From the NCBI RefSeq assembly GCF_000146065.2, contig NC_020449.1:2022654-2086653 (forward strand): a stretch of DNA of 64,000 nt, read 5' to 3'. A model generated the notes under the pieces. That model was not told the DNA's origin. It did no database searches and was given only the letters and a program-made list of their open reading frames with translations. Shown here one piece after another: positions 16,437-31,622 of this stretch (the stretch's first letter is position 1; each line of letters begins with the position of its first letter). A program made the translations under genes and the position numbers. Source of the DNA: Candidatus Cloacimonas acidaminovorans str. Evry (GTDB lineage: Bacteria; Cloacimonadota; Cloacimonadia; Cloacimonadales; Cloacimonadaceae).

Positions 16437-17017
16437 GTGAAAAAACCAGATAAAATAGCCGAGTTTCTGGCAAAAAACGCCTACTCATCACACGCATCCT
16501 GTGTATCGCTGTTGCTTTGGAATTCGTCATCAATTATAAGGTTCGGATTCAGCATCTGCTAACTAATCCCTCAGGTATTATCATCAGTATTATTCTAATT
16601 GCTTTAGGTGCCTTTATCAGGTCCTGGTCTGCCGGAATTATTCAAAAAGGTAATCGCCTGGTGCAGGAAGGACCTTATTGCTTAAATCGTAATCCGTTAT
16701 ACACAGGTAGCGCTTTAATTTTAATCGGATTTGTTTTATTCCTGAATGATATTTGGGCTTGGATAGCAGCAATTCTCTTGATTCTGGTAATTTTCCCTTT
16801 CACCATTAGCAGAGAAGAAAAAGGTCTGAGCAATAAATTTCCTGATGAGTGGATTAACTATGCCAAAACAACCGGAAGGTATTTCCCCCGGAAAATTTCC
16901 TGGAAAAAAATGAAATATCCCTGGTCTTTCCAGTTATGGCTTAAAAACAGGGAATACCAAACCTTTTTCCTATCTCTCCTTCTCCTGATAATAATTATCA
17001 TAGTTGGGTTGGTTTAG
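16437..17017 (+). CDS. Isoprenylcysteine/phospholipid methyltransferase-like membrane protein, with frameshift
   Basis: The main frame encodes a small polytopic membrane protein ending in hydrophobic helices, with the PEMT/ICMT-type motif EGPYCLNRNPLYTG, a family that uses S-adenosylmethionine. That frame has no ATG; its first usable start inside is TTG at 16517. An upstream GTG at 16437 with an AGGGAG ribosome site opens a second frame (VKKPDKIAEFLAK). That frame reaches the heptamer A AAA AAC at 16472-16478, and a -1 shift there joins it exactly to RLLITRILCIAVALEF in the main frame. Without the shift the first frame ends near 16560. Either this is programmed -1 frameshifting, or a one-base error or mutation in a run of six A. 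Joined length is about 193 residues. Confidence 0.75.
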
Positions 17018-17208
17018 AGGGTTGGGAAAGTTGAGAGGGTTGAGAAGGTTGAGAAAGTTGAGAGGGTTGAGAAGGTTGAGAAGGTTGAGAGGGTTTAGAG
17101 GGTTTAGAGGGTTTAGAAGGTTTAGAGGGTTTAGAGGGTTGAGAAGGTTTAGAGGGTTGAAAGCCCAAAGGGCGAAACAACGATAGCGATGGGTGCGTAA
17201 GCCCCTCG
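17016..17208 (+). repeat. GTTGAGAAGG tandem block plus family C element
   Basis: About 16 units of GTTGAGAAGG/GTTTAGAGG (9-10 bp), then the 48-bp family C element at 17161-17208: a GCCC-N3-GGGC hairpin, then GATAGCGATGGGTGCGTAAG and CCCCTCG. Related blocks lie at 40085-40175, 51685-51915 (inverted) and 61958-62450. Confidence 0.85.
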
Positions 17209-17855: not shown

Positions 17856-17909
17856 CGGAGGAACGGCGTCCTCCGGCTACACAAAAAAACGGAGGAACGG
17901 TGTCCTCCG
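17856..17909. repeat. Paired REP-like hairpins, second locus
   Basis: Two consecutive CGGAGGA-N6-TCCTCCG hairpins (17856-17875 and 17890-17909) of the same type as at 5723-5780. The right-hand one doubles as a terminator. Confidence 0.75.
17883..17909 (-). terminator. Intrinsic terminator of the ExbB/ExbD operon
   Basis: Minus strand: stem CGGAGGA / TCCTCCG with a 6-nt loop followed by seven T, 22 bp beyond the AgmX/TonB-like stop codon. Confidence 0.88.
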
Positions 17910-17931
17910 TCTGTAAAAATAGTTTTGAGAG

Positions 17932-19359
17932 TTAACCTTTGCGTAATCTGAATTTGAATTCGTAATCAAATTCTTCATTTATAGGGAAGCTCCAGGATTC
18001 GCAAAGTTGTTCCAGTTCGGTTAAAAAACCATTAGGCATATTGCCTTCAGGGGTGATTATGGCATCCTGCACTTTTCCGGAAGCGTTAATTAACAGACGA
18101 ATTTTTACGCTTCCCGAAAAAGGAATAGTGGCATTCCATTTCATATACAGAGATTGTATCTGTCCTTTACGAATCTCCACAGCTCTTCTAACTTCGTCAA
18201 TAATTGTTTGGCGTTCTGCAGGTGCTTGAGAAATGGTTTCTTCAGTAACTTGAGTTACTTGTTTGCTTTTAAACTTTGCAAGGGTTTGTTCTGTGACAGC
18301 TGTTTTCCCAAAAGCAACTCCACTGGGCATCAATTTGCTTTGATCTCCTGAAGCTTTAACAATAGCTACCCCTTCGGGACGGATTTCAGAACCCCTAACT
18401 GTGGGCGCTTTGGTTGCTACAGAGCCAATATCACTGGTAAAACTTCTAGTGGCATTGGGGTCAAAAGTTGTTCCGCCAACTCCTCCACCAGGTCCTGCTC
18501 CTCCAACACCAGGTCCTGCACCTCCACCACCTCCGCCTCCGGGACGAGAAGTAACAAATCCTTCCATAAGAGTGAGTGCCTGAACAGGTCTTGCGGCTGA
18601 AGTGGCACTCGGATCAAAAGTACCAAAGCCACTACCAAAAATTGCGCCTGCTGATTTAGCGGTTCCCTTGCCTCCGGGAACTCCACTTGGTTGTTCTTTT
18701 CCTGCAGTTTCTTCAGGAACTTCGGCATATTCACCCGCTTCTTCAAAAGTACTGGGTTTTGCTAATGCCTCTGCTTGAATGCGTTCTGCTTTCTGAATTG
18801 TTTGAAGTTTCTGTTCCAAAGTTGTATCGTAGGAGACCTGTTTTTTTAGAAACAGATCAAAGATAATCACAAAAATAACGGTTAGAATGACGAACAACAG
18901 GATCATATTACGGCTGAATTTTTCATCGGCAGTAGGTTGAGGACGACAGGCATATTGAGCAGCAATTTGTTGCTGTTCCGGAGTAAGAACAGAAACATAA
19001 GGTTCTTTAAATTCGTAAGAAATTTCCCAATTAGGTGCGATGGCAAGAGTTCCTGTCATATCGGGACGAAGCAAGAGTTTATTACCCTGCAGAATAAAAC
19101 TTTTTGTCAGATAAGATTCATCTACCGGTTCTCCATCTTTAGCACAACTTACTTTCGCACCAGGAGGCAACTGTAGGTAAAGCTGATCACCTTTTTTAGT
19201 GACAAACAGGTGCTTTTCTGGAAATGTCTCATCCAGGATTTGCCAGAAGAGGTATTTATCCGAACCGATAAAGAACTTGTTCTTAAAATCGCGTCCATAA
19301 CGCACCTGATCCAGTTTTTTGCCTTTATAGTGCAGAGTTAAGTTTAATAATTTGGACAT
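17932..19359 (-). CDS. AgmX/TonB-like energy-transducing protein
   Basis: 475 residues. Residues 1-120 form a soluble, probably cytoplasmic, beta-rich domain. One transmembrane helix follows (152-171, very hydrophobic). A long low-complexity periplasmic linker (about 200-370) has a glycine run near 270-300. The C-terminal domain (about 385-475) has the AgmX/TonB pattern (IQSLYMKWNATIPFSGSVKIRL...AIITPEGN). In the family, this module couples an inner-membrane proton motor to targets in the periplasm or outer membrane. It is the last gene of the ExbB-ExbD-ExbD operon, 12 bp after the second ExbD. An N-terminal soluble domain before the helix is unlike classical TonB and recalls gliding-motility AgmX/GltJ-type proteins. 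Confidence 0.85.
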   Translation of the reverse strand: MSKLLNLTLHYKGKKLDQVRYGRDFKNKFFIGSDKYLFWQILDETFPEKHLFVTKKGDQLYLQLPPGAKVSCAKDGEPVDESYLTKSFILQGNKLLLRPDMTGTLAIAPNWEISYEFKEPYVSVLTPEQQQIAAQYACRPQPTADEKFSRNMILLFVILTVIFVIIFDLFLKKQVSYDTTLEQKLQTIQKAERIQAEALAKPSTFEEAGEYAEVPEETAGKEQPSGVPGGKGTAKSAGAIFGSGFGTFDPSATSAARPVQALTLMEGFVTSRPGGGGGGGAGPGVGGAGPGGGVGGTTFDPNATRSFTSDIGSVATKAPTVRGSEIRPEGVAIVKASGDQSKLMPSGVAFGKTAVTEQTLAKFKSKQVTQVTEETISQAPAERQTIIDEVRRAVEIRKGQIQSLYMKWNATIPFSGSVKIRLLINASGKVQDAIITPEGNMPNGFLTELEQLCESWSFPINEEFDYEFKFRLRKG

Positions 19360-19371
19360 TTTCCCTCCTTT

Positions 19372-19917
19372 TTATTCAGCCAAACTAACACTATACTTTT
19401 TTAGCCAATCGGCATCCTCAAGCGTGGCAAAATATATGTATGAGTAACCTGCTGCTGTAGCAGCACGGACAATTTCCGTTATATATTCACAGGGAATGGA
19501 ATAGTCGGCTTGAACCAGAAGACAGGTCTCTGCCTTTTGATGCTGAATAATGTCAGCGGCTTCCATTTTCAAATAAGTTAATAAATCTTGACGTTTATTA
19601 GCGTCTGTTAGCAAATCTGCCGGCGAACCATATTCCAGGGCTTCAGTTCCAACAACAACACGATCCGGGAATATTTTAATCGGAGTTGTTCCCGCTTTTT
19701 CTAAAAGCTTATCGTTGGTGATTGTATGAGGATAGGTAATATTGGGTTCTGCAGAAATTTTTACTACTTCCGTAGAGATATTTTTAACCAGGAAAACCAA
19801 GATAATAGTTAGTTCATCCAGCAAAGAAGTAATGGACAACCCTTTTGCTTCCTCAAATTTTTTCCGGACGCGGCGTTCACTTTTATTAGAAGATTTTAGT
19901 TTATCCAGAATTTGCAT
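19372..19917 (-). CDS. exbD: ExbD/TolR-like proton-channel subunit with the conserved Asp
   Basis: 181 residues with one N-terminal transmembrane helix. The key acidic residue is present: Asp34 in ITSLLDELTIIL, aligning with the ExbD motif PLVDVMLVLL, where it carries protons. The periplasmic domain is longer than in typical ExbD (about 140 residues), with an ExbD-like end in which a vectorial Tyr-rich strand (AGYSYIYFATLEDADW) replaces the usual GVT...FVT pattern. It sits 11 bp after another ExbD-like gene and 12 bp before the AgmX-like gene. Together with its paralogue it probably forms the periplasm-facing part of the motor. Confidence 0.85.
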   Translation of the reverse strand: MQILDKLKSSNKSERRVRKKFEEAKGLSITSLLDELTIILVFLVKNISTEVVKISAEPNITYPHTITNDKLLEKAGTTPIKIFPDRVVVGTEALEYGSPADLLTDANKRQDLLTYLKMEAADIIQHQKAETCLLVQADYSIPCEYITEIVRAATAAGYSYIYFATLEDADWLKKYSVSLAE

Positions 19918-19928
19918 AAGTCGCTCCT

Positions 19929-20456
19929 TTAATAATACTCCACTTTGGTGGCAGTATAATGAACCTGGGTAAATCCATTGACTTTACAGATGTCTATCGT
20001 TTTCATCAGGTCTCCATAAAGGACATCCGGATGAACGAGGACAGTAATATCGCTAAGAGTTCCTTTTCGGCTTCTAATTTCTTGCAGAGTTTTATTCAGG
20101 GTCACATAATCATAATATCCATTAATGGCAGAGATAGTCATCGGCTTAAAGCCAGGTTCGCGGATTTCCATACCTATAGTAGCATTATTCTCTTGGGCAT
20201 ATTGTTTACCCAAAATATGGATTTCCACTTTTTCGGTTTTAGTGTCGCCACCTCCACCTCCGCCTTGTCCATAACTAACACCGCTTTCCCCTTGCGAGAA
20301 ATTTAGCGCCAAAAGAGCAATCTGCGAAATAACCACCATCATTAGCAGCATTGGAATAATGGTTAAAAACAGATTCATAATCGGCACCAGGTTTGGTTCC
20401 TGGGGCACCGTTTGGGATTTTTGCTGGCGCATTGCGGATGGTCTGTATTGTCCCAT
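19929..20456 (-). CDS. exbD: ExbD-like paralogue lacking the proton-carrying Asp
   Basis: 175 residues, one transmembrane helix (about 23-45). The aligned position of the channel aspartate is Asn28 (LVPIMNLFLTIIP). The periplasmic part contains a glycine stretch, then an ExbD fold that ends KVNGFTQVHYTATKVEYY. The gene lies between the ExbB-like gene (4 bp gap) and the Asp-containing ExbD. Two ExbD-type genes in one operon also occur in Myxococcus Agl and some Tol-like systems. Here only one of the two should be able to carry protons, which suggests a hetero-dimer with an asymmetric pore (inference). Confidence 0.85.
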   Translation of the reverse strand: MGQYRPSAMRQQKSQTVPQEPNLVPIMNLFLTIIPMLLMMVVISQIALLALNFSQGESGVSYGQGGGGGGDTKTEKVEIHILGKQYAQENNATIGMEIREPGFKPMTISAINGYYDYVTLNKTLQEIRSRKGTLSDITVLVHPDVLYGDLMKTIDICKVNGFTQVHYTATKVEYY

Positions 20457-20460
20457 AATT

Positions 20461-21228
20461 TTAATCCTTAATGGCGTTGTTAATAGTATTGATCAATTTA
20501 ACACTAAACTCGTCAATATTGCTGATAATGTTGTTTGCCCGGGTTAGCAGCCAACCTTTAATTAAAGTTAAGGGAATAGCAGCCAGCAAACCCAGAGCGG
20601 TTGTTCCAATTGCTTTTTTAATACCATCAGTTAAAGCAGTTTGTTGTGCTGCACCGGTTAAACCAGCTAAACCTGCAAATGCTTCCAACAAGCCCCAAAT
20701 GGTTCCTAAAAGTCCAAGATAGGTAGCTACTTGAGCCAAAGTATCAAACCAGAATAAACCGCTATCCAGTTTATACACTGTTTGCAGAACAGCTTCTTCC
20801 AGAGAATTTTGGACAGAATTTCTCAAATCAGCACCCGTTTGACCACTTTTTCTTGCATCTTTGAAAACCATCAAAGCGCTCCAGAAGATAAAGCCCATAG
20901 TGGTTCCCTTATAGCTTTCAGCAATTTTGGTTGCTTCATCCAGCTGGTCATTGCGGATATAATTGCGAAGTTTTAAATAAAATCCAGCGGCATCAATCTT
21001 CTCTTTGGGGTATAACTGATACCAACGCACAAAGGCATAAACAAGACCAATAACAAAAACCAACAGGATAGCATAAGCCCAATTACCGCTATCTATAAAT
21101 ACTTGAGTTAAGCTATAACCCTGTTTAGCTGGTGCAGCTGGAGCTGCTGTTTCTGTTGCTGGCTGAGCAAACAGGCCAACACACATAAAGAGTGAGATGA
21201 TCATAAGGACGATATTTTTTGTTTTCAT
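20461..21228 (-). CDS. exbB: ExbB/TolQ/MotA family proton-channel protein
   Basis: 255 residues from the ATG at 21228, preceded by AAGGAG; a longer reading from 21246 is possible but begins with GTG/ATG choices lacking a site. It has an N-terminal signal-like segment, one helix near 50-70, and two C-terminal helices with the family motif ATYLGLLGTIWGLLEAF and GTTALGLLAAIPLTLI. This forms the pentameric proton channel that powers TonB-type transducers. The start codon overlaps the preceding gene's stop (ATGA), a sign of translational coupling. Confidence 0.93.
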   Translation of the reverse strand: MKTKNIVLMIISLFMCVGLFAQPATETAAPAAPAKQGYSLTQVFIDSGNWAYAILLVFVIGLVYAFVRWYQLYPKEKIDAAGFYLKLRNYIRNDQLDEATKIAESYKGTTMGFIFWSALMVFKDARKSGQTGADLRNSVQNSLEEAVLQTVYKLDSGLFWFDTLAQVATYLGLLGTIWGLLEAFAGLAGLTGAAQQTALTDGIKKAIGTTALGLLAAIPLTLIKGWLLTRANNIISNIDEFSVKLINTINNAIKD

Positions 21229-21524
21229 TTTGACTCCTTCAGCCATTTATTTAGTAATGTATCGCTTTGTTCACGAATATCTTCAATTGTAAAGGAGAAC
21301 TTATATTCCCCTGCCTTCCGATAGGTATCGGATTTATCTTGAAAGATATCGGTAGATGGGATAAGAGCTTTTATTTCAATAACCAACTCTTTTTCTTCCA
21401 CATATCTGCGGGCACCTTCAAAACCCTTTACCGGTTGCTGTTGAGTGGTAGTTGTTGCTGCTTGGGCATAGATAATGCCTGTAAAAAAGAGCAACACCGC
21501 TAATAGGATAAAAACTTTTTTCAT
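21225..21524 (-). CDS. Small secreted protein of the ExbB operon, unknown
   Basis: 99 residues. Residues 1-20 are a clear signal peptide (MKKVFILLAVLLFFTGIIYAQ), and the rest is a charged periplasmic domain without recognised family. The start overlaps the stop of the giant repeat protein by ATGA and the stop overlaps the ExbB start by ATGA. It is therefore firmly built into the operon. Likely a periplasmic accessory of the machine; no function can be assigned. Confidence 0.8.
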   Translation of the reverse strand: MKKVFILLAVLLFFTGIIYAQAATTTTQQQPVKGFEGARRYVEEKELVIEIKALIPSTDIFQDKSDTYRKAGEYKFSFTIEDIREQSDTLLNKWLKESK

Positions 21525-24500
21525 CGTATATCCCCCTTTCCTGCTTTAATAATTTTAACTGTTGCAATAAAGCCACGGTAGTTGGAATTGTTAGTTACTA
21601 CAAAGCGTAAGGTATTTTTGCCCGCAGTTACTTTTGCCGGGTCTATCGTAACCTGGGATGTATAGACCCTGAACGGTTCAGGATCATAATCCAGATGAAG
21701 ATTAGCAGCTAATTCCTGTCCATTTAGATAAACCGAAGCTACTTCCGGTGCCACAAAATTGATTAAACCGTCCCGGAACTCGGTATCCAGGTAAAAATCA
21801 ACTTCAAAAATAGCACTGCTTACAGGTGCTGTTTCGGGGAACCAAATAGGTTTGGCATAAGTTTCTTCCAGCCCTACAATGTTATCCAGGGCGATACCAA
21901 AATTGCCTGTAATAGTTGCAGCCGAAGCTGTTTCCACTCCCGTTTCAGGATTAACCGTTATAATTCTCCATGTAGGATCAGTATAAAGCATCACTGTTTC
22001 CGGAGGTATGGAAGCGGCTAATTTGTTGCGGTCTATAAAGACCTGCAAATTCATATAGAAACTTTGCTGTTCAGGACTATCATTAGGAACAGTCAATTCT
22101 ATTATGTTTTGTCCTTCAGCCCAGGCGCTGGAAGGTAGTAAATATGCGAAACGGGTTGTAGTTATCGGCTTATTAACATCTAAGGTATCGGTAGGAACAA
22201 CACCGGGTTTCAGATCAGTGCCATTCAGCCGAATTTTAATATCATAAGGATAAACTAGGTGCAATAAAGCAAATTCGGGTTGGATTTTAGCATTAACAGT
22301 GCGATTTAGAATAAGTTCTTTATTGGAAGGTATTTGAACACAGCTCAAGTGCACACCTTTAGGCGAAGTTATATTCTGAACAGGTAAATTTACATTTGTC
22401 CCATCCATTTTTTCAGTCCAGCCGGAACCAAGAGGATATTCCTCCATCTTATAATCGGGCAACAAATTCCATTCCTGCAGTTTGGCATAACTTTGCTGCG
22501 TATAATAATCGGTATAACCAGCTAGCTGATAAAAGTTATAGATGTTTAAATGAGTAGTGTATGCCAAACTAAAGAGGTCATTACTATAATCGGCAGCCAG
22601 AGTTGCAATAAAAGCATCTAAAACATCTTTATACTCTTGACGGACACCTTCTGCTTCACTGGCAGTTCGCACATAAACTCCAATTTGGGTGTTGATAACA
22701 TTAACTCCCTTTTCATAAATGCGGGCAATTAAGTTCAACGCGCGCAGACGGCGATAATTTTCCAATTCAATATTCTGTTTATCAGCATCGGCAAGAAGCT
22801 TGTTTACCTTTGCTACTTCTGCTTTAACAGATGCCTTGAAATTGGGAATACGACGATAGGAACCCCCAATTAAGTGATTCTGCCAGGTAGTGCTGGCATT
22901 AACTTTGATTAGAGCTGCAGGAGATGATGTAAGCAAAGTTCCCTTTTCAATAGCGGTAAGCTGGTTGTCAAAATTTTTCAGGAAAGCGATTCGTTTCTGG
23001 AGATCATTATATTCTTTTTCCACTGCGGCAAAGTATTCATAATTCTTGGTAGAGCTAAAGTCCTTCGTTTCAAAATTTAGTCCTTCTTTTTTATACTCTG
23101 CTTCCAACCTTTTATATTCATCACGAAACTTAAAGGCATCGGTATAATTCTTATTCTTATAGGCATTATCAAAATTATAAACCAGTTTACTCAGCTTTAA
23201 AGTAGCAATCCATTGATAGCGGTCACCCTTGGTTTTATCTTTTTGGTAAATTTCTTTAGCCAGTTGCTCAAACTTAAGAGTATCCCCTTTAGCTAAATAA
23301 TAATCAGCAGTTTCCTGCATAAAGGGTATCACATTTTCATTGTTTGGATATAAGGTTATGAACCGGTTATATGTCTCAACTGCTTTATCCTTGTTTTCAG
23401 CTTCGCTGTAAAGTATGGCAGCTTTTGCTAATAACGCGTCAGGAGTAATATTTCCGGTATTAATGGTTTTGTTTCTGGCTTCTTCATAAAGAGCAAGATA
23501 AGCATCTGCAGCAGCAGTCCTCTGAGCAGGATTTTTTTCCATTTCCTGAATCATTGCCATACGTAGCTTGAATGCTTGATTGCTACTGGGATATTTAGCA
23601 ATAAAGCTTTCACGAATGCTTTTGGCAAGTTGGGGATTGTTCATTGCAGTATCGGCTTCAGCAATTTCTGCTGCACGGAAATAATAATAGTAAATTTCAC
23701 CAATATCCGTTCGCGTTCCAGCCAGTTCTAAGAGAATATCTATTGCCTTCTGATATTCTTTTGCTTTAATATATGCCTCTTGAGCTCCCATTTTATAACC
23801 GGTAACACGTTGTGCATCCTTAGAACCAAGTTCTTCTGCCAAACGCAATCGTTCACTTGCTGCCAGAGAATAATTTCCAGCACTCTCGGCTGCTTCAAAG
23901 CTATTTTGAATTTGATAGCAAATGTTATTAATTATAGCTTCCCGCTCAGCCGGAGTAGCAGTATAAGGTAATGCTTTACGGTAATATGTTTCTGCTTGGG
24001 CATAATTTTGCTCATTTTCCGCCATTGACGCAAGCTTTCCGTAAACGGTAAATTTTGTTCTGTCGGGAATCAGAGTTTCATTTTCCAAAGCAGAGAGATA
24101 TAACACTTTAGCGTCAGGCATTTTTCCACGCTCATATTGAATATCAGCTAAACTAAGTAAAATATTAACTGCCTGAATTTCACGCTCAGGATTTTTATAG
24201 GCATCACTGCGCAGAACACTAATAAATCGCTGAGAATTTGAATGTAATAAAGCAAACAGCTCATCCGCATTGGCGGGTAAACCTGGCTCAGGTTGAAATC
24301 CTTCCCCATAAAGGTCTTTCATCAGGTTGTAAATATTAAAGGAATAAGTATAGATCAAACCTTCATTCAGGAAAAAATCCTCATCCTGGGGATATTTTGC
24401 ATTAAATTCCTGCAGGTTTCTTATCGCAGTTAAATAGTGTTTGGGTAAATTGGAACGCTCGGCAAGAGTATTGCCAAGCAGTAGTTTGGTTTTATCTGCT

Positions 24501-27370
24501 TGGGCTTTCCAGGCAGCATAATTTTCACCCTGCAGCTCCGGAAAAGCAGCATATTGATCTATGTGCTGATAATAAGCAAGCAATTTGGTTTCATTGGCAG
24601 GATCGGCAAGAAATTCGTTTTGCAGGCGAATAGCTCTCTTTTCATAAGCATTTTTGATCACTGCCAGCTGAGCTGAGATGTTGCTGTTATTCATATTTGC
24701 TTGATACCAGGCAGAGTTTTTGCCATAGTTGGTTATAATATTCTGATACAAATCTTGAGCTATTTGATCGAAATTCTGACCTTCCCGCAGTTCATACTGA
24801 GCGCTGGCATACAATTTCAAAATGGAATCCACTAAGGCGGGATTTTCCAGAGCCAGAGGATTTATATCTATTTTCAGCCAGATAAAGTCAATTGCTTGAA
24901 TAGTAGATAAATTCAACTTATTTGCAGCAGCTTTATCTATAATGCTGCTTATAATTTCAGGATTCTTGTAACTGGCAGCAATATTTTGCAATTCTGCTAC
25001 ACCCTTGGCTGGTGAATAGAAATCAGTTCCATCCAAAGCAATCAGGCAGAAAGCAATATTATCTATAGCATCTTCGCGATACCCTTTGGCGATCATAGGA
25101 TCAGAAATCTTGCCACTGTCAACAGCATTCAACAAAGTTAGAAAATCGTTCAGAGCCAGCATAAAATCCTGTTCCTGAAAAGAATTTAAGCGTAACCACC
25201 CACGCTGATAAATGGCATCGTATTGATATTTACTATTCGGCTTGTTAATAATTTCATCAAAGCAGTTTGTGGCCAAAGCATAGTAACGCTGTGGCTGATC
25301 AGCATCGGTAGCAATATAATAATACAAAATTCCCAGACGGTATAGGGACTCGTCATAATAAGGAGAGGTCTTATAGTTATCTATAATTCTTTGATAGGAA
25401 CTGATTGCCTCGGCAAAATCTGACTCCTTATATCTGCTAGCATCATCAAGAGCTACGGCAGTCCTGTTTATTTCATAAAACCTGGCTTTATTATCGCCTA
25501 TCCTTTGATGGCTAAGCTGACTACTGATAAAACCGATATTATATAGGGCTGCATCTATATTCACATTGTTGGGATCAAGCTGAACAACTTTTCTATAACT
25601 TTCCAAGGCAATAGTAGGGGTCTCCAGATAAACAGCATATTGAAGCTCAGCCAGATTATAATAGAGATCAGCATTACTGATAAGATAGTTTCCATTGGGC
25701 TGTTCAACTGCCTTAAAATTGGGATTATAGTTAATAAAATTTTGAATGCGGGTAATTAAATCACGCTTTTCCGCCAAGATTTCTGCCTGCCGCTCAGTCA
25801 GCTGTTGTTCCGTCCACTTTCCTATTTGCGCGATTCGTGCCTGTTCCTTAATATGCAGGTTGCGATAATCCAGTTGCAATTTAACAAATTCCACATTAGC
25901 AACCAAATCCTGGGCATTTTTACGAATGGGCTCATTGCGCACACCACTATCAGCAGTTACGGCTATTTGAGCAACAATACTGTTTTTGATTTTATTTCGC
26001 TGTTCTTCCGTGAAAATATTTTTTGATTCTTCTTGCATAAATTGTTCAATCTCAGCCAGCTGAATATCTATATCTTTTTTATCCTGAAAGAGAGAGTAAT
26101 ATTCCTGCAAAATAGCGTTAAAAATTTGTTCTTCCACATCGCTAATATGTTTACGAGTTTGCAACAGGTCATTTTTCCTGATCAATAAACTGGTTCGTTT
26201 TTCGGAATAATCTGCTCTGGTCCTTTTCAACTGCTCCTGAATATTAGCTAATTCAGGATCTGCAATATCTTTATCCAGTTCAGCAATAAGATTATTATAG
26301 AGCTGAATGTTTTTTTCAATATCAAATAATCGTTTCAGTTCCATATCACTAAAATTTTGACCTTGAACACTGGGATCATTAGTCAGAAAGCGCTCATACT
26401 GCTTTTCCAGAATTTTATCCATTATCTCAAGCTGTTTTTGGTAGTTGGTAGATAATTGTTTTACTTGCTGAAATAACAAATTACCCCTTACCATTGTTTC
26501 CTCAGCCTGGACTTTTTGATCTATATAATCAAGAATAACCATCTTTAGTGAATCCAGCATAGCCATTTCTTCTGAATGCAGATTAACAATGGAATCCAGA
26601 TAAAAAATCCCTTTCAAAGAAATTAATTCGTTATAATTGCGGGTTAAATCAGCTTTTATACCATCTATTTGGGAAGCTATCCTTTTATATTCAGCAGGGC
26701 TGGGATTAGCATAATAGGGCTCTAAATTTAAGTTCTGCACTCTTGCCAGGATTGCCATTTTTTCGGGAAGCAAACGATTCATTATTATATCCCGGTTTTG
26801 AATGTAACTATTAAGCGTATTTACAACACTTTCATATTCACCATCATCAGCAGCCATATCAGCCCAAATATATAGATAAGTAGGATAATATCTATCAATA
26901 TTGTAATTCTCAAATACGATAGCGCTTAAGAAATCCTTTGCCGTTTTTCGGTTACCCTGCTCCAAGTAATGCACCATTTGCTGGAATAAAACCAGGTTCA
27001 GCATTTTTCGGGCGTCTTCATTCAAATGAGTATTGAGCAAGGAAGTAAAATAACTGATAGCTTTGGCATTTTCTCCTACACGAACATAGAAATGACCAAG
27101 TAAATAAATAAATTCATTTTGATCCATACTGGAAAAAACATCTTTATATTTTACCAGTGCCTGTTCAGCCAGTGTCGGATCTTCCTTCACCAATTCTGGC
27201 AGTGCATCAACTAAAAACATCTTGGCTAATTCTCTGATAATTTGTTTTTCCTGGGATATTTGCTCTTGGATTTGTTCTTTAGTATATTGAGATATATCCT
27301 GAGCATAAACCACTGCCAAGAATGACACTGCAACAACAATTAGGAATATAATTTTAAGAATGTGTTTCAT
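21521..27370 (-). CDS. Giant secreted TPR/helical repeat protein (about 1949 residues)
   Basis: The start chosen is ATG at 27370, which gives a compact signal peptide (MKHILKIIFLIVVAVSFLAV then YAQ); a GTG four codons upstream is possible. The mature protein is almost wholly helical. It has tetratricopeptide-like repeats (for example YNIGFISS.., DESLYRLGILYYYIATD, NYAQAETYYRKALPYTATPAE), a long coiled-coil stretch near 270-460, and a beta-rich C-terminus (about 1650-1949) with two carbohydrate-binding-like strands regions. It heads the operon with the small secreted gene, ExbB, two ExbDs and AgmX. Likely a periplasmic or outer-membrane-associated scaffold of the same machine (inferred from coupling). 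Very long genes of this type are seen in Cloacimonadota-like genomes, as far as I know without experimental function. Confidence 0.85.
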   Translation of the reverse strand: MKHILKIIFLIVVAVSFLAVVYAQDISQYTKEQIQEQISQEKQIIRELAKMFLVDALPELVKEDPTLAEQALVKYKDVFSSMDQNEFIYLLGHFYVRVGENAKAISYFTSLLNTHLNEDARKMLNLVLFQQMVHYLEQGNRKTAKDFLSAIVFENYNIDRYYPTYLYIWADMAADDGEYESVVNTLNSYIQNRDIIMNRLLPEKMAILARVQNLNLEPYYANPSPAEYKRIASQIDGIKADLTRNYNELISLKGIFYLDSIVNLHSEEMAMLDSLKMVILDYIDQKVQAEETMVRGNLLFQQVKQLSTNYQKQLEIMDKILEKQYERFLTNDPSVQGQNFSDMELKRLFDIEKNIQLYNNLIAELDKDIADPELANIQEQLKRTRADYSEKRTSLLIRKNDLLQTRKHISDVEEQIFNAILQEYYSLFQDKKDIDIQLAEIEQFMQEESKNIFTEEQRNKIKNSIVAQIAVTADSGVRNEPIRKNAQDLVANVEFVKLQLDYRNLHIKEQARIAQIGKWTEQQLTERQAEILAEKRDLITRIQNFINYNPNFKAVEQPNGNYLISNADLYYNLAELQYAVYLETPTIALESYRKVVQLDPNNVNIDAALYNIGFISSQLSHQRIGDNKARFYEINRTAVALDDASRYKESDFAEAISSYQRIIDNYKTSPYYDESLYRLGILYYYIATDADQPQRYYALATNCFDEIINKPNSKYQYDAIYQRGWLRLNSFQEQDFMLALNDFLTLLNAVDSGKISDPMIAKGYREDAIDNIAFCLIALDGTDFYSPAKGVAELQNIAASYKNPEIISSIIDKAAANKLNLSTIQAIDFIWLKIDINPLALENPALVDSILKLYASAQYELREGQNFDQIAQDLYQNIITNYGKNSAWYQANMNNSNISAQLAVIKNAYEKRAIRLQNEFLADPANETKLLAYYQHIDQYAAFPELQGENYAAWKAQADKTKLLLGNTLAERSNLPKHYLTAIRNLQEFNAKYPQDEDFFLNEGLIYTYSFNIYNLMKDLYGEGFQPEPGLPANADELFALLHSNSQRFISVLRSDAYKNPEREIQAVNILLSLADIQYERGKMPDAKVLYLSALENETLIPDRTKFTVYGKLASMAENEQNYAQAETYYRKALPYTATPAEREAIINNICYQIQNSFEAAESAGNYSLAASERLRLAEELGSKDAQRVTGYKMGAQEAYIKAKEYQKAIDILLELAGTRTDIGEIYYYYFRAAEIAEADTAMNNPQLAKSIRESFIAKYPSSNQAFKLRMAMIQEMEKNPAQRTAAADAYLALYEEARNKTINTGNITPDALLAKAAILYSEAENKDKAVETYNRFITLYPNNENVIPFMQETADYYLAKGDTLKFEQLAKEIYQKDKTKGDRYQWIATLKLSKLVYNFDNAYKNKNYTDAFKFRDEYKRLEAEYKKEGLNFETKDFSSTKNYEYFAAVEKEYNDLQKRIAFLKNFDNQLTAIEKGTLLTSSPAALIKVNASTTWQNHLIGGSYRRIPNFKASVKAEVAKVNKLLADADKQNIELENYRRLRALNLIARIYEKGVNVINTQIGVYVRTASEAEGVRQEYKDVLDAFIATLAADYSNDLFSLAYTTHLNIYNFYQLAGYTDYYTQQSYAKLQEWNLLPDYKMEEYPLGSGWTEKMDGTNVNLPVQNITSPKGVHLSCVQIPSNKELILNRTVNAKIQPEFALLHLVYPYDIKIRLNGTDLKPGVVPTDTLDVNKPITTTRFAYLLPSSAWAEGQNIIELTVPNDSPEQQSFYMNLQVFIDRNKLAASIPPETVMLYTDPTWRIITVNPETGVETASAATITGNFGIALDNIVGLEETYAKPIWFPETAPVSSAIFEVDFYLDTEFRDGLINFVAPEVASVYLNGQELAANLHLDYDPEPFRVYTSQVTIDPAKVTAGKNTLRFVVTNNSNYRGFIATVKIIKAGKGDIR

Positions 27371-27414
27371 AATCCCGCTCACTTATATTCTCTTTATTTT
27401 CCCTATGATGATAA

Positions 27415-27523: not shown

Positions 27524-28723
27524 TTATTGCTTTTGCTTCAATTCTTCTATCCATTTGCGCAGCTCTTCCATTGCCTGCTGAGCTTTTTGCCTCTCTTCTT
27601 TCAGCATTTGAAGTTCTTTAAGCAAATCTTGAACTTCAGGAGAAAGCTGTTGATAACCTGCAGTCCCAGGTGTAACTAAACCAGGGGTTTGTAACTGGGT
27701 TCCAGGACCAACTACAACTTCTCCTCCAACAGGAGGTTTGGCTGCTGTTCCTGTAGGAGGAACAACAACAATTTCTCCGGTAGGGCTTACAGTAGTACCT
27801 GTGGGAGGAACAACTACACCTGTTTCAATAGGTGTTTCTCCAACCTCAACTACTTCTCCGCCAACAGATGGCTTTTTCCCATAACTGGCATAAAGACCAA
27901 GATCGGGACGGCGTTTGGCTTCAGCATATTTGTCAAACAAATAGGAAACCCCTAAAGCAACACGGAGATTATCCTTATAATCGCTATCCTTGAAGCGGTC
28001 TTCAATAGCACTGGCTCCCAGCTTAAAACCAAAGTTTTTATAGGCATAATTTATCCCTATATTGATGTCTTCACCATCAAATTCTCCCTGCAAAGTCAAA
28101 TCTCTGACCGGTGACATCTCCACAGAGAAAAAGGTTCCTGTTAAATAACGCGCTCTTGGAGCTTGTCCCACAAAGCGGTTTGAACCAATGCCTAAATTGA
28201 ACATCCAGGGAATTCCCCAAAAGACAACCTGTTTAGATGCAACTGCATAAGGAGAATAGGGCTCATAAGAATCAGCTTCCGGATTATCAACAAAATCATC
28301 ATTTTCACCCAAGTATTGAGCTCCGTGCTTTGCTACAGGAGATAAAATATTATCCATTCCTACAGCAATTTGGGGAATACGCAAGGTTTCCTCAATAATT
28401 TTCACCTTTGCATTAAGTAAATAAACTAAACCATCTAAAGAGGTGTAATCCCCAAGAAACATACTAAGTTCCACTCTGTCCAGAATTCCTACCCCTATCA
28501 TTGCATACGGAAAGAACCCTTTGGAGGCATCTTCGGCGTCTTCAGTAGGTGGTTTGGGAGCTGATATATCCCGATAATAACCCACCAACAGAAATTCTGC
28601 AGCTTTATTTGGTAGAACATAAGCATCAGGAGTTCTTAGCATTCCCAAGGTTTGAAAAGGTGCTGCTTGAGCAACCCCAAGAACAGCAACCAGGGCAATC
28701 ACGGTCAACAAAGTTTTTTTCAT
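27524..28723 (-). CDS. Outer-membrane beta-barrel-like protein with proline-rich and coiled-coil tail
   Basis: 399 residues from ATG 28723, with a GGAGGG ribosome site; a GTG four codons earlier overlaps that site. Residues 1-24 form a signal peptide. Residues 25-290 read as alternating beta strands of a YjbH/porin-like barrel (IGVGILDRVELSMFLGDYTS, VALGVSYLFDKYAEA). A Pro/Gly/Val-rich linker follows (about 295-355, several PPTG units), and the final 45 residues are a Glu/Lys/Gln coiled coil. It lies directly upstream of the giant repeat/ExbB operon. It may be its outer-membrane partner (inference). No specific family name is justified. Confidence 0.75.
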   Translation of the reverse strand: MKKTLLTVIALVAVLGVAQAAPFQTLGMLRTPDAYVLPNKAAEFLLVGYYRDISAPKPPTEDAEDASKGFFPYAMIGVGILDRVELSMFLGDYTSLDGLVYLLNAKVKIIEETLRIPQIAVGMDNILSPVAKHGAQYLGENDDFVDNPEADSYEPYSPYAVASKQVVFWGIPWMFNLGIGSNRFVGQAPRARYLTGTFFSVEMSPVRDLTLQGEFDGEDINIGINYAYKNFGFKLGASAIEDRFKDSDYKDNLRVALGVSYLFDKYAEAKRRPDLGLYASYGKKPSVGGEVVEVGETPIETGVVVPPTGTTVSPTGEIVVVPPTGTAAKPPVGGEVVVGPGTQLQTPGLVTPGTAGYQQLSPEVQDLLKELQMLKEERQKAQQAMEELRKWIEELKQKQ

Positions 28724-28764
28724 TTTTCCCTCCACCTTTCGGTGTTACTTTCTTATCAAAATTC

Positions 28765-28808: not shown

Positions 28809-29195
28809 ATGAAAAAATATTCACTTCAGGATTTTTCTCACATCGGCGAAGATCTTGCTGCTCGCTATCTCGTAAGTAACGGTTATACTATTACTTGCCG
28901 TAATTACAGGAAGAAATACGGCGAGATAGATATTATTGTGGAAAAAGATCAACACCTCGTTTTTTGTGAGGTTAAAACCCGTACCTCTCACTCTATAGAA
29001 TGGGCTCTGGCTTCCATTGGTTTCTCCAAACAGAGAAAAATATCCAGAACTGCACAATTATATATTAATGAAAATCCCCAATTTGCCAAACACATTTTTC
29101 GCTTTGATGTTTTACTCGTTTTCTACTATGAAAACACCGACACTTTTGAGATTAAGCACTTTGAAAACGCTTTTGACGCTATTTTAGAGTATTAA
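28809..29195 (+). CDS. yraN: YraN family (UPF0102) endonuclease-like protein
   Basis: 128 residues, the usual length. It shows the restriction-endonuclease-fold core of the family: GEDLAARYL near the start, then YRKKYGEIDIIVEKDQHLVFCEVKTR, in which the Glu-Asp...Glu-x-Lys residues (E39-D41, E55, K57 by eye) form a PD-(D/E)XK-type site. It probably acts on DNA; the family role is not firmly known. Its 3' end overlaps the convergent GWxTD gene by 4 bp. No ribosome site stands out; the leader is a T-rich stretch. Confidence 0.92.
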   Translation: MKKYSLQDFSHIGEDLAARYLVSNGYTITCRNYRKKYGEIDIIVEKDQHLVFCEVKTRTSHSIEWALASIGFSKQRKISRTAQLYINENPQFAKHIFRFDVLLVFYYENTDTFEIKHFENAFDAILEY

Positions 29196-30529
29196 TTATC
29201 CAGTTTGGAAGTATCAAAATCGCTTCCTACATAACGCATCCAATCGGGATTTGATGCTTCCAGATCATCATTTTCTACATAAATTAAACGGTAATTGCCA
29301 TTCATCTGAATATCAATGAACATATAGACCGGTTTTTTCCCTGAGGCATATTTCCATATCTGATAGTCCTTTCTCACAAAACGGCTTTCATCTGAACTGG
29401 TATCGCGTTGAATATCATCTGGTGGTCCGTTTCTGATATAAATACGCCCCATATCAGAAGTCCAGCCCTGTTTAAAATGGGTAAAATTACGGTTTGCATA
29501 ATCAATCCGTTTCTGCACCAAATCCATAATGCTTTGAACGCTACGGTTGGTAGAAAAAGCCATATCTCTCCAGAACTGAGTAATATATCTTCTTTTTGTA
29601 TCCTGATTCATTTTTCCCCAGTCCGAAGGTATTTTATTGCCTAAAAATATGCGCATTAGTTCATATTCTTCGTCGGGGTTGGCAAACAGAAAAAATTCCT
29701 CTTCTTTTTCTTCAATCACAGCAAATTCTATATTTCTTTCTTCAGTGCGTTCGGCGCTTTGAAGGACAATAGTTCCATTATAAAAGCCAGGATTCAGGTC
29801 TTTAAGGGGTATTTTTAAATTGATGCTTTCACTGCCTGGACCGGGTTGAAAATCAATATATTCATCCATAACTACAAGCGAATCCTTTTCCAAAGAAAGG
29901 TTTAGCAGACAGCTTTCCGAAGTGGAATTCCAGTTATAGATTTCCAGATAGAGATAGATATAATCATTAGTGGACTTGTTGAACAGGATTGAGGGCTCAG
30001 AATGATAGAGAACATTATTTCGTTTAAATTTAACCAAATATTGAGAAGTATCGGGTCTAACTTCACTGTTCAACTCTACATCGCTAAGCAAACTACTAGG
30101 AGGAAGGGTCTCAATTGGAAATTCATAGAAAAAGTTTTTCTGGCTATTAATATCCAGAGCGCTAAATTGAATCGTGTAAAGGGGTTTATGGAGAGTGAAA
30201 CTGAGTCGGTTAAGATATGATTTTTGCCGGTTACCGGTATCGGCTTTGTTTTTTACTCCAATAATATCGTTTATTTCATGCTCTAAAAATACACTATCTG
30301 CTTCCGTAATTTTAACCTTTACATTCAGTTCCGCAAAGTATCCGTTATTTGTAGCCAAAAAAGCCAAATTCTCATAAGGTATCTGATAATCAAGTAAAAG
30401 AATTGTATTTTTATTTTTATCCAGAAACCGGTTATAGTCAATAAACATATTTAATTTATCCGACCCTAAGAGGGTGCTAAAGGAGAAAAGAACTACTCCT
30501 AAGCTAAAAAACAACCTAATATTCTTCAT
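29192..30529 (-). CDS. GWxTD domain-containing secreted protein (second of pair)
   Basis: 445 residues with a signal peptide (MKNIRLFFSLGVVLFSFSTLLG). The defining motif is GWTSDMGRIYIRNGPPDD at about 353-370, inside the conserved C-terminal domain that starts near 300. The N-terminal part is beta-rich. The GWxTD family occurs in Bacteroidetes, Cloacimonadota and related groups, is exported, and has no established biochemical function. The gene overlaps the 3' end of its own paralogue upstream by 14 bp, placing it third in the dnaE transcription unit. Confidence 0.88.
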   Translation of the reverse strand: MKNIRLFFSLGVVLFSFSTLLGSDKLNMFIDYNRFLDKNKNTILLLDYQIPYENLAFLATNNGYFAELNVKVKITEADSVFLEHEINDIIGVKNKADTGNRQKSYLNRLSFTLHKPLYTIQFSALDINSQKNFFYEFPIETLPPSSLLSDVELNSEVRPDTSQYLVKFKRNNVLYHSEPSILFNKSTNDYIYLYLEIYNWNSTSESCLLNLSLEKDSLVVMDEYIDFQPGPGSESINLKIPLKDLNPGFYNGTIVLQSAERTEERNIEFAVIEEKEEEFFLFANPDEEYELMRIFLGNKIPSDWGKMNQDTKRRYITQFWRDMAFSTNRSVQSIMDLVQKRIDYANRNFTHFKQGWTSDMGRIYIRNGPPDDIQRDTSSDESRFVRKDYQIWKYASGKKPVYMFIDIQMNGNYRLIYVENDDLEASNPDWMRYVGSDFDTSKLDN

Positions 30530-31622
30530 CCTTATTCCTTAAAGTATATTGTCCGTAACCCGTAATATCCGCAAAGATAAACTCCAGGTTTTTATCATAG
30601 TAATACCAAATAATATAAGGATATTTATCCAAAGCATAAACTTCCGAATAGATATCATCCGGTTCACCGTATTTGATATATATTCTACCCTGATCTGTTG
30701 TCCAGCCGGCAATTTTTTTATGCAGGGTAAAACGTTCATCGGCAATCATTACTCTTTGATAAAATTGTTCCCTTAATTCATTTCTAACAGTTCCGGGGCT
30801 GGGATCGTTTGCTTTCCAGAATGTTTCAATTGCTTCCGCCTGTTTTTCTTTGGGTAAGCGTCTTAAATATTTCCATTCGTTTTGATTGGCAATATAGCGG
30901 ATTTGTCTGATTTGATCCTCCAGAGAATAACGCAGAGAATAAGCATACCAGGGAGTAAATAGGAAAGGTTCCATTTTATAGTAGATATTATTTTCATAAA
31001 ATATCAAGTTCATCAGGTTTTGGGCATCTGTCTGCAGATAAGGGAGAAGGTCTAAAACTATCGGGCTTTGAGGATTTTTTACAGTTAAGACCTGATTATC
31101 TATAGTTATTTTCAAGCTATCCAGAGAAATTGAATAACTCTGATATAGTTTCACTTCATCGCTAATCAGTCCGGAAAGCGTATTGGGAAGATATTCCAGG
31201 TCTTCTCTTTTAGCAATAATCCAGCTGAGTCCAATTTCTGTGCTGGAAGAACCAATTATGAATTGACGAGAGTAGCTTCGTCTCTCTCCCATTGCTTTGT
31301 TTTTTATCTGTAAAATTACATTATATGAGCCCTGAGGAAGTTCCTGCCGAAAATGGATAGGAATTCCACAATCGTTAAGCCAGCTACATTTCGGAATAAT
31401 TTGGCTTTTTTCCAAGGTTGCCACTTGCTTTTTTTTCGCATCACTAATCTGCAGAGAAACCTGGTAGAGTGCTTCATCGCTTCCTTTCTTGAAGTTGATT
31501 GAATTATAGGGTAAAACAACCCATATCTCTACTTCGTTTCCATAGTGCTCATAGAAAACTTCCTGAGCGGAAAGAAAGCCGAAAGCAAACAGCAGAAGGC
31601 AAAAGCTAATTATTTTTTCCAT
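30516..31622 (-). CDS. GWxTD domain-containing secreted protein (first of pair)
   Basis: 368 residues with a short signal peptide (MEKIISFCLLLFAFGFLSAQ). The motif GWTTDQGRIYIKYGEPDD lies at about 305-322. The paralogy with the neighbour is clear in the domain and weak in the N-terminal half. The start codon lies 17 bp inside the 3' end of dnaE in another frame, so translation probably couples to dnaE. Function unknown; export and pairing suggest envelope proteins that work together. Confidence 0.88.
   Translation of the reverse strand: MEKIISFCLLLFAFGFLSAQEVFYEHYGNEVEIWVVLPYNSINFKKGSDEALYQVSLQISDAKKKQVATLEKSQIIPKCSWLNDCGIPIHFRQELPQGSYNVILQIKNKAMGERRSYSRQFIIGSSSTEIGLSWIIAKREDLEYLPNTLSGLISDEVKLYQSYSISLDSLKITIDNQVLTVKNPQSPIVLDLLPYLQTDAQNLMNLIFYENNIYYKMEPFLFTPWYAYSLRYSLEDQIRQIRYIANQNEWKYLRRLPKEKQAEAIETFWKANDPSPGTVRNELREQFYQRVMIADERFTLHKKIAGWTTDQGRIYIKYGEPDDIYSEVYALDKYPYIIWYYYDKNLEFIFADITGYGQYTLRNKDEEY

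Follow-up and report, generated by a model that had tools for sequence, protein, structure and literature searches.

A conserved operon of Candidatus Cloacimonas in the Agl/Glt core-complex family, with asparagine for aspartate in the first of its two ExbD proteins

A run of genes encoding a giant repeat protein, a small secreted protein, an ExbB, two ExbD and an AgmX-like protein in Candidatus Cloacimonas acidaminovorans str. Evry raises two questions: what kind of machine do these genes encode, and how would its motor use two unlike ExbD subunits? The window, that is, the whole 64,000-nucleotide stretch analyzed, corresponds to positions 2,022,654-2,086,653 in a genome of 2,246,820 bases that forms one contig, and features are numbered from its first letter.

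Architecture and conservation of the operon

All six genes lie on the minus strand, in the order giant TPR protein, small secreted protein, ExbB, ExbD1, ExbD2, AgmX-like protein. ATGA overlaps join the giant gene to the small one and the small one to ExbB, while the downstream intergenic gaps are short (4 bp for ExbB-ExbD1, 11 bp for ExbD1-ExbD2 and 12 bp for ExbD2-AgmX), which confirms the coupled six-gene operon proposed in an earlier note made from the DNA alone. The start of the unit nevertheless has to be moved upstream, since that note missed a barrel gene (28735-27524) that directly precedes the TPR gene and keeps this place across Cloacimonadota. The features of the locus, from its 5' to its 3' end, are as follows.

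27524-28735, minus strand: outer-membrane beta-barrel protein, 403 aa, predicted from an AlphaFold model with 12 strands and a C-terminal helix
27383-27523, minus strand: leader in the gap between barrel and giant genes, carrying a strong hairpin that lacks a T-run (stem of 12 bp, GGTTCAGGAT../..ATCCTGAACC)
21521-27382, minus strand: giant secreted TPR protein, assigned by Pfam TPR families
21225-21524, minus strand: small secreted protein, 99 aa, with a signal-peptide-like N terminus, found at the same place across Cloacimonadota
20461-21228, minus strand: ExbB/TolQ/AglR-type proton-channel subunit, 255 aa, from ATG 21228 (PF01618, 1.2e-22)
19929-20456, minus strand: ExbD1, 175 aa, in the AglQ position (PF02472, 2.7e-7)
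19372-19917, minus strand: ExbD2, 181 aa, in the AglS position (PF02472, 3.8e-5, just below the curated cut-off)
17932-19359, minus strand: AgmX/GltG-like transducer, 475 aa, assigned by its predicted model and profile matches
17887-17912, minus strand: strong intrinsic terminator at the operon end, a stem of 10 pairs followed by a T-rich tail

Comparison of gene order across Cloacimonadota and their neighbors, which the earlier note had suggested as a check, shows that these genes indeed stay together. Among 40 regions taken from other Cloacimonadota genomes, the succession ExbD1, ExbD2, AgmX is kept in 38, with ExbB present in 37 and the TPR gene or genes in 36. Among the exceptions are two regions that end at contig ends (L043 and L073) and two that hold a solitary AgmX homologue (L057 and L058); wherever the contig permits, the full order from TPR gene to AgmX is near-universal. 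Because the order is kept in nearly all of these 40 regions, the grouping is not due to chance, and the operon is a conserved unit of seven genes across Cloacimonadota, the barrel gene being the first. A match to the AgmX-like protein is found in 83 of 124 Cloacimonadota genomes, and in 49 of the 70 that are of good quality; the 40 regions compared come from genomes with such a match.

The giant protein is 1953 aa long from a GTG at 27382, or 1949 aa from an ATG at 27370. Its earlier description as a single repeat protein holds for closer relatives, but deeper Cloacimonadota have two genes in its place, encoding proteins of about 670 aa and about 1300-1490 aa. These align to the profile of the Cloacimonadota giant at positions about 9-459 and about 451-1849, respectively, the match covering the C-terminal two thirds of the ~670-aa protein. 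Judged by these alignments, the giant joins two TPR proteins, of about 670 aa and about 1450 aa, and forms a single gene only in closer relatives. Like the barrel gene, this fusion had gone unnoticed at first, as had the substitution in ExbD1 described below.

The solved structure that best matches the barrel model is the KdgM porin (Z 15.4, rmsd 2.3, 159 aligned), FapF scoring an equal Z (15.4, rmsd 4.4, 200 aligned); a Pfam search with the barrel protein gave no match. The machine would naturally terminate in this barrel at the outer membrane. We considered and rejected homology with the proteins encoded upstream of TPR genes in KSB1 and Fibrobacterota, to which the match was short and weak. 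The leader hairpin that separates the barrel gene from the giant folds as RNA at -39.4 kcal/mol (z -5.4 against shuffles) and is a possible candidate for an attenuation or processing element that would set barrel expression apart.

Two features of the surroundings deserve mention. Just 3' of the operon, a minisatellite at 17011-17160 (9-bp unit with a 27-bp higher period, 5.6 copies, 90% matches) adjoins a gene at 16517-17017. On the other side, between dnaE and the barrel gene, 29192-31622 encodes two GWxTD-domain secreted proteins, a pair found at the same place in most closer Cloacimonadota relatives and as one copy in many deeper ones.

A branch of the Agl/Glt core-complex family

In Myxococcus, the gliding and spore-coat machines derive from a core complex, whose group B genes (gltC, gltD, gltE, gltG, aglR, aglQ and aglS) form one operon (Luciano et al. 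2011, PMC3169522). This complex has been called a possible basal transport machinery by the Myxococcus group and stands alone in many Gammaproteobacteria (PMC3858216). When genome contigs were scanned with ExbB, the nearest relatives outside Cloacimonadota came from Fibrobacterota, Fermentibacterota, KSB1, Nitrospirota, Gammaproteobacteria, Myxococcota and Bdellovibrionota. Most of them have ExbB, ExbD, ExbD and an AgmX-like gene in an operon, preceded by TPR genes and a gene for a small secreted protein. KSB1 keeps the order TPR, TPR, small, ExbB, ExbD, ExbD, AgmX, and the same order, with gaps or extra genes, is seen in Fibrobacterota, Gammaproteobacteria and Myxococcota. In an IQ-TREE phylogeny of 84 ExbB, a core/AglR clade is split (100/100) from Ton-type ExbB, the genome's own included, and the ExbB of the Cloacimonas operon falls inside the core/AglR clade.

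The AgmX-like protein is predicted to consist of an FHA-fold domain (residues 1-120), a single membrane helix (about 144-171) that contains no His, a long disordered Gly-rich linker and a C-terminal TonB-like domain (about 380-473). A fold search with the N-terminal domain listed FHA folds throughout (best Z 9.6), and a direct sequence search of the PDB with the AgmX-like protein gave no match. While its score against NF033768 (1.9e-5) lies below the cut-off, it aligns with the homologues from core operons (hhalign 99.5%, E 1e-22), and 9 of 9 of those match the GltG model NF033760 (best 1e-58). The usual FHA pattern, GR...SRxH, is tied to phosphopeptide binding. Since this pattern is missing from the Cloacimonas domain, which reads IGSDK...FPEKH, the latter is probably not a phosphopeptide binder.

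As for the secreted components, the two TPR units of the giant align with the pair of TPR genes found in other core operons, and its C-terminal non-TPR part has profile matches in Fibrobacterota (E 2e-9 to 3e-10). The small protein resembles GltF (89 aa) and the small secreted proteins of other core operons in position and size, and by profile its counterparts in other phyla match it weakly (hhalign 61.6%, E 7.8e-5). A separate GltE was not found at the Cloacimonas operon beside the two TPR units.

Because the ExbB tree, the gene order, the profile matches and the predicted FHA-helix-TonB fold all agree with this family, we assign the operon, by sequence comparison, to a Cloacimonadota branch of the Agl/Glt core complex, which we found in no fewer than eight major groups of bacteria. 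The AglR-type ExbB, the tandem ExbD pair, the FHA-helix-TonB transducer and the small secreted protein are shared with that complex, and the secreted TPR proteins probably are too. The motor and the GltG-like transducer are homologous to those of Myxococcus xanthus, where AglRQS works with Glt proteins in gliding and with Nfs proteins at the spore coat. By contrast, the TPR pair is fused in Cloacimonadaceae, the unit includes a barrel gene and there is no clear GltE; the 12-strand barrel is comparable in kind to the Myxococcus add-ons GltA, GltB, GltH, GltI, GltJ and GltK. A very similar layout, likened here by gene layout alone, is that of FSU_2396-2403 in Fibrobacter succinogenes (OmpA, TPR, TPR, ..., ExbB, ExbD, ExbD, TonB), which is raised on cellulose, has TPR and OmpA proteins in an outer-membrane complex and has been read as a Ton-type system for cellodextrin uptake (PMC6851124).

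The first reading of this DNA had likened the layout to Agl-Glt machines, which the ExbB tree, gene order and GltG profile matches uphold, and had noticed a soluble domain ahead of the AgmX helix, which is indeed present and is predicted to fold as an FHA domain. Its suggestion of a novel proton-driven trans-envelope system of the lineage survives in part: the system appears to be trans-envelope and is presumably proton-driven, but it is not lineage-specific, as the contig search found relatives and the family was described in 2011. Of the two outcomes that the note had named as refuting it, neither occurred: the genes keep together in relatives, and the regions from 40 relatives gave no TonB-dependent receptor beside them.

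Asparagine in ExbD1, aspartate in ExbD2

In the MotAB, ExbBD, TolQR and AglRQS motors, an Asp of the axle is the proton carrier, and its replacement by Asn is the standard dead-motor mutation. In Cloacimonas, ExbD1 has precisely this residue, Asn28 (codon AAT at 20375-20373), in place of the proton-binding Asp: its VPIMN corresponds to TPFID in E. coli ExbD, and a profile alignment puts Asn28 on Asp25. Asn28 also aligns with Asp28 of the first ExbD, in the AglQ position, of a Myxococcus-like operon (L276). ExbD2 keeps the Asp (Asp34, codon GAT at 19818-19816), as do all three further ExbD/TolR proteins of the genome. In Cloacimonadota, every ExbD1 examined has the Asn and every ExbD2 examined the Asp. 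ExbD1 moreover has invariant features of its own, namely Met-Asn and, 7 residues on, a Pro. As for ExbB, the GLLGT and GTTA Thr motifs are conserved, and since these channel Thr motifs are kept, the motor looks alive.

The same pairing recurs far beyond this phylum. Asn in ExbD1 with Asp in ExbD2 is found in 161 of 196 distinct, deduplicated pairs, from seven phyla, these being matches ranked by ExbB similarity rather than a random sample, with phylum labels partly assigned from the search centre. It is the state of all pairs from Cloacimonadota (57/57), Fibrobacterota (30/30), Gammaproteobacteria (36/36), KSB1-type genomes (5/5), Fermentibacterota (4/4) and Nitrospirota (2/2), and it is also seen in 22 of the 52 Myxococcota/delta pairs and in 5 of 6 second copies. 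Asp/Asp pairs comprise 4 of 4 from Bdellovibrionota and 24 from Myxococcota, Myxococcus-type motors included, and the other six Myxococcota/delta pairs hold exactly one Asp (A/D, G/D, S/D, D/A and two D/G). We found no paper on this pairing in the open-access literature, although it may have been reported, and the part of the core-complex description available to us makes no mention of it (PMC3169522).

In the ExbB tree, the Myxococcus-type Asp/Asp clade is nested within Myxococcota Asn/Asp lineages, and the AU test rejects a tree in which all Asp/Asp motors form one clade, and with it one common origin (p 0.0007). For these two reasons it is likely that Asp was regained, or repeatedly lost, the root of the tree and the direction of change not being firmly fixed.

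Several core operons and their relatives carry further peculiarities. One genome, a class-level relative (G116), has two divergent copies of the whole system (L055 and L056), both Asn/Asp. Two Fibrobacterota core operons have an extra small gene of 108-124 aa between ExbD1 and ExbD2 (L120, 11084-11458; L113, 11167-11493), STAS/anti-sigma-antagonist-like by eye and possibly a motor regulator. Two Fibrobacterota genomes have an ORF (L294, 4576-6183; L295, 3925-5607) that encodes 535-560 aa, including an ExbB-like domain, and lies ahead of another ExbB and one ExbD of the Asp type.

A proposed motor with one proton site and what it may drive

Rotary motors of the 5:2 type (ExbBD, TolQR, MotAB) have five ExbB around two ExbD, rotating. 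On this pattern, an ExbB pentamer with one ExbD1 and one ExbD2 as its axle would be powered by proton motive force. Protons would be taken up on one side of the axle only, by Asp34 of ExbD2 and not at Asn28 of ExbD1, so that a turn would take roughly half the protons of a two-site motor; under the 5:2 model this would amount to about five protons per turn, not ten. The FHA-helix-TonB protein, as the GltG counterpart, would relay the movement through the periplasm. Its recipients, namely the TPR protein, the small secreted protein and the outer-membrane barrel, would in turn move or export outer-membrane or surface cargo. We consider it reasonably probable that the operon encodes a machine of this description: trans-envelope, of the Agl/Glt family, proton-driven through an ExbD1-ExbD2 axle with one proton site, and moving or exporting surface cargo. 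In this picture we infer the heterodimer, the proton count, the rotation and the export or transport function. A heterodimer is expected because Asn28 of ExbD1 and Asp34 of ExbD2 leave a single proton-taking side, and a working one-site motor is the simplest reading since the ExbB Thr motifs and the ExbD2 Asp are kept.

ExbD and TolR, as a rule, form homodimers. There could accordingly be two motor populations, in which homodimers of ExbD2 work with ExbB while complexes with the Asn-bearing ExbD1 are proton-inert and anchor, plug or regulate. The invariant features peculiar to ExbD1 would suit such a role, and one paper describes it as not known whether AglQ pairs with AglS or each with itself (PMC9389320). 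What makes this arrangement unlikely in our view is that strictly one Asn and one Asp copy lie adjacent in seven phyla, as fixed partners predict, and that the Asp is likewise single in other Myxococcota pairs, where it may be in the first or the second ExbD (D/A, D/G, A/D, G/D, S/D). The fixed pairing thus argues for the heterodimer without proving it.

The heterodimeric Agl/Glt-type machine has also to be set against other identities for the operon. ExbB, ExbD and a TonB-like C-terminal domain, homologous to the subunits of a Ton system, are all there, as an ordinary Ton system energizing a TonB-dependent receptor would require. The genome, however, has three ExbB loci: a TolQRA-like set at 1.159 Mb, on account of which we rejected a Tol-Pal identity for the operon; an ordinary ExbB-ExbD-ExbD set beside a TonB-dependent receptor; and the core operon. 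Its TonB-dependent receptors map to 75 kb and 710 kb, with one of them adjoining the ordinary ExbB, and no homologue of these receptors was found in the window or in the regions from 40 relatives, in keeping with the initial impression that this is no siderophore TonB. The ExbB of the operon lies outside the Ton clade, its two ExbD are unlike, an FHA domain is present, and the AgmX helix is without the His that is a feature of TonB/TolA-type transducers (PMC12204202). We therefore reject the ordinary Ton system as very improbable. A gliding machine that gives Cloacimonadota surface motility would draw on the motor type, the GltG-like transducer and, probably, the TPR proteins in common with the Myxococcus machine. 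Against it, the sampled Myxococcus-type gliding motors are Asp/Asp rather than Asn/Asp, in Gammaproteobacteria this core occurs widely as a machine in its own right (PMC3858216), and we found no motility data on the lineage in the open-access literature; gliding seems to us improbable.

As for the cargo, the Myxococcus relative moves spore-coat glycan (PMC3858216), and a Wza-like polysaccharide export gene follows all six Fibrobacterota core operons with enough downstream DNA, succeeded in one of them (L120) by genes for a Wzc-like kinase and a glycosyltransferase. Poly_export has no match in the Cloacimonas genome; the polysaccharide link thus holds in Fibrobacterota and does not extend to Cloacimonas, for which this function is unsupported.

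For Cloacimonadota, these results identify a conserved envelope machine. The core complex has been known since 2011, and the surprising part is the Asn-for-Asp change in ExbD1: the standard dead-motor change occurs naturally, and almost invariably, in one axle subunit of motors from seven phyla. In Myxococcus, the D28N change in AglQ abolishes proton conductance, and motility, sporulation and NfsD movement stop (PMC3858216). More tentatively, since we would put it somewhat short of an even call, the pairs may represent a large, unremarked class of 5:2 motors with an obligate heterodimeric axle and a single carrier, using some five rather than ten protons per turn, inside which the Myxococcus motor arose and regained a second Asp. 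If so, that regain would explain why the Myxococcus gliding motor depends on Asp28 of AglQ. The pairing bears on the question of hetero- versus homodimers of AglQ and AglS and on the evolution of gliding motors; if the pair forms one axle, it would be a natural, half-loaded motor that offers a direct test of how many protons are needed per turn and of whether both axle subunits have to work.
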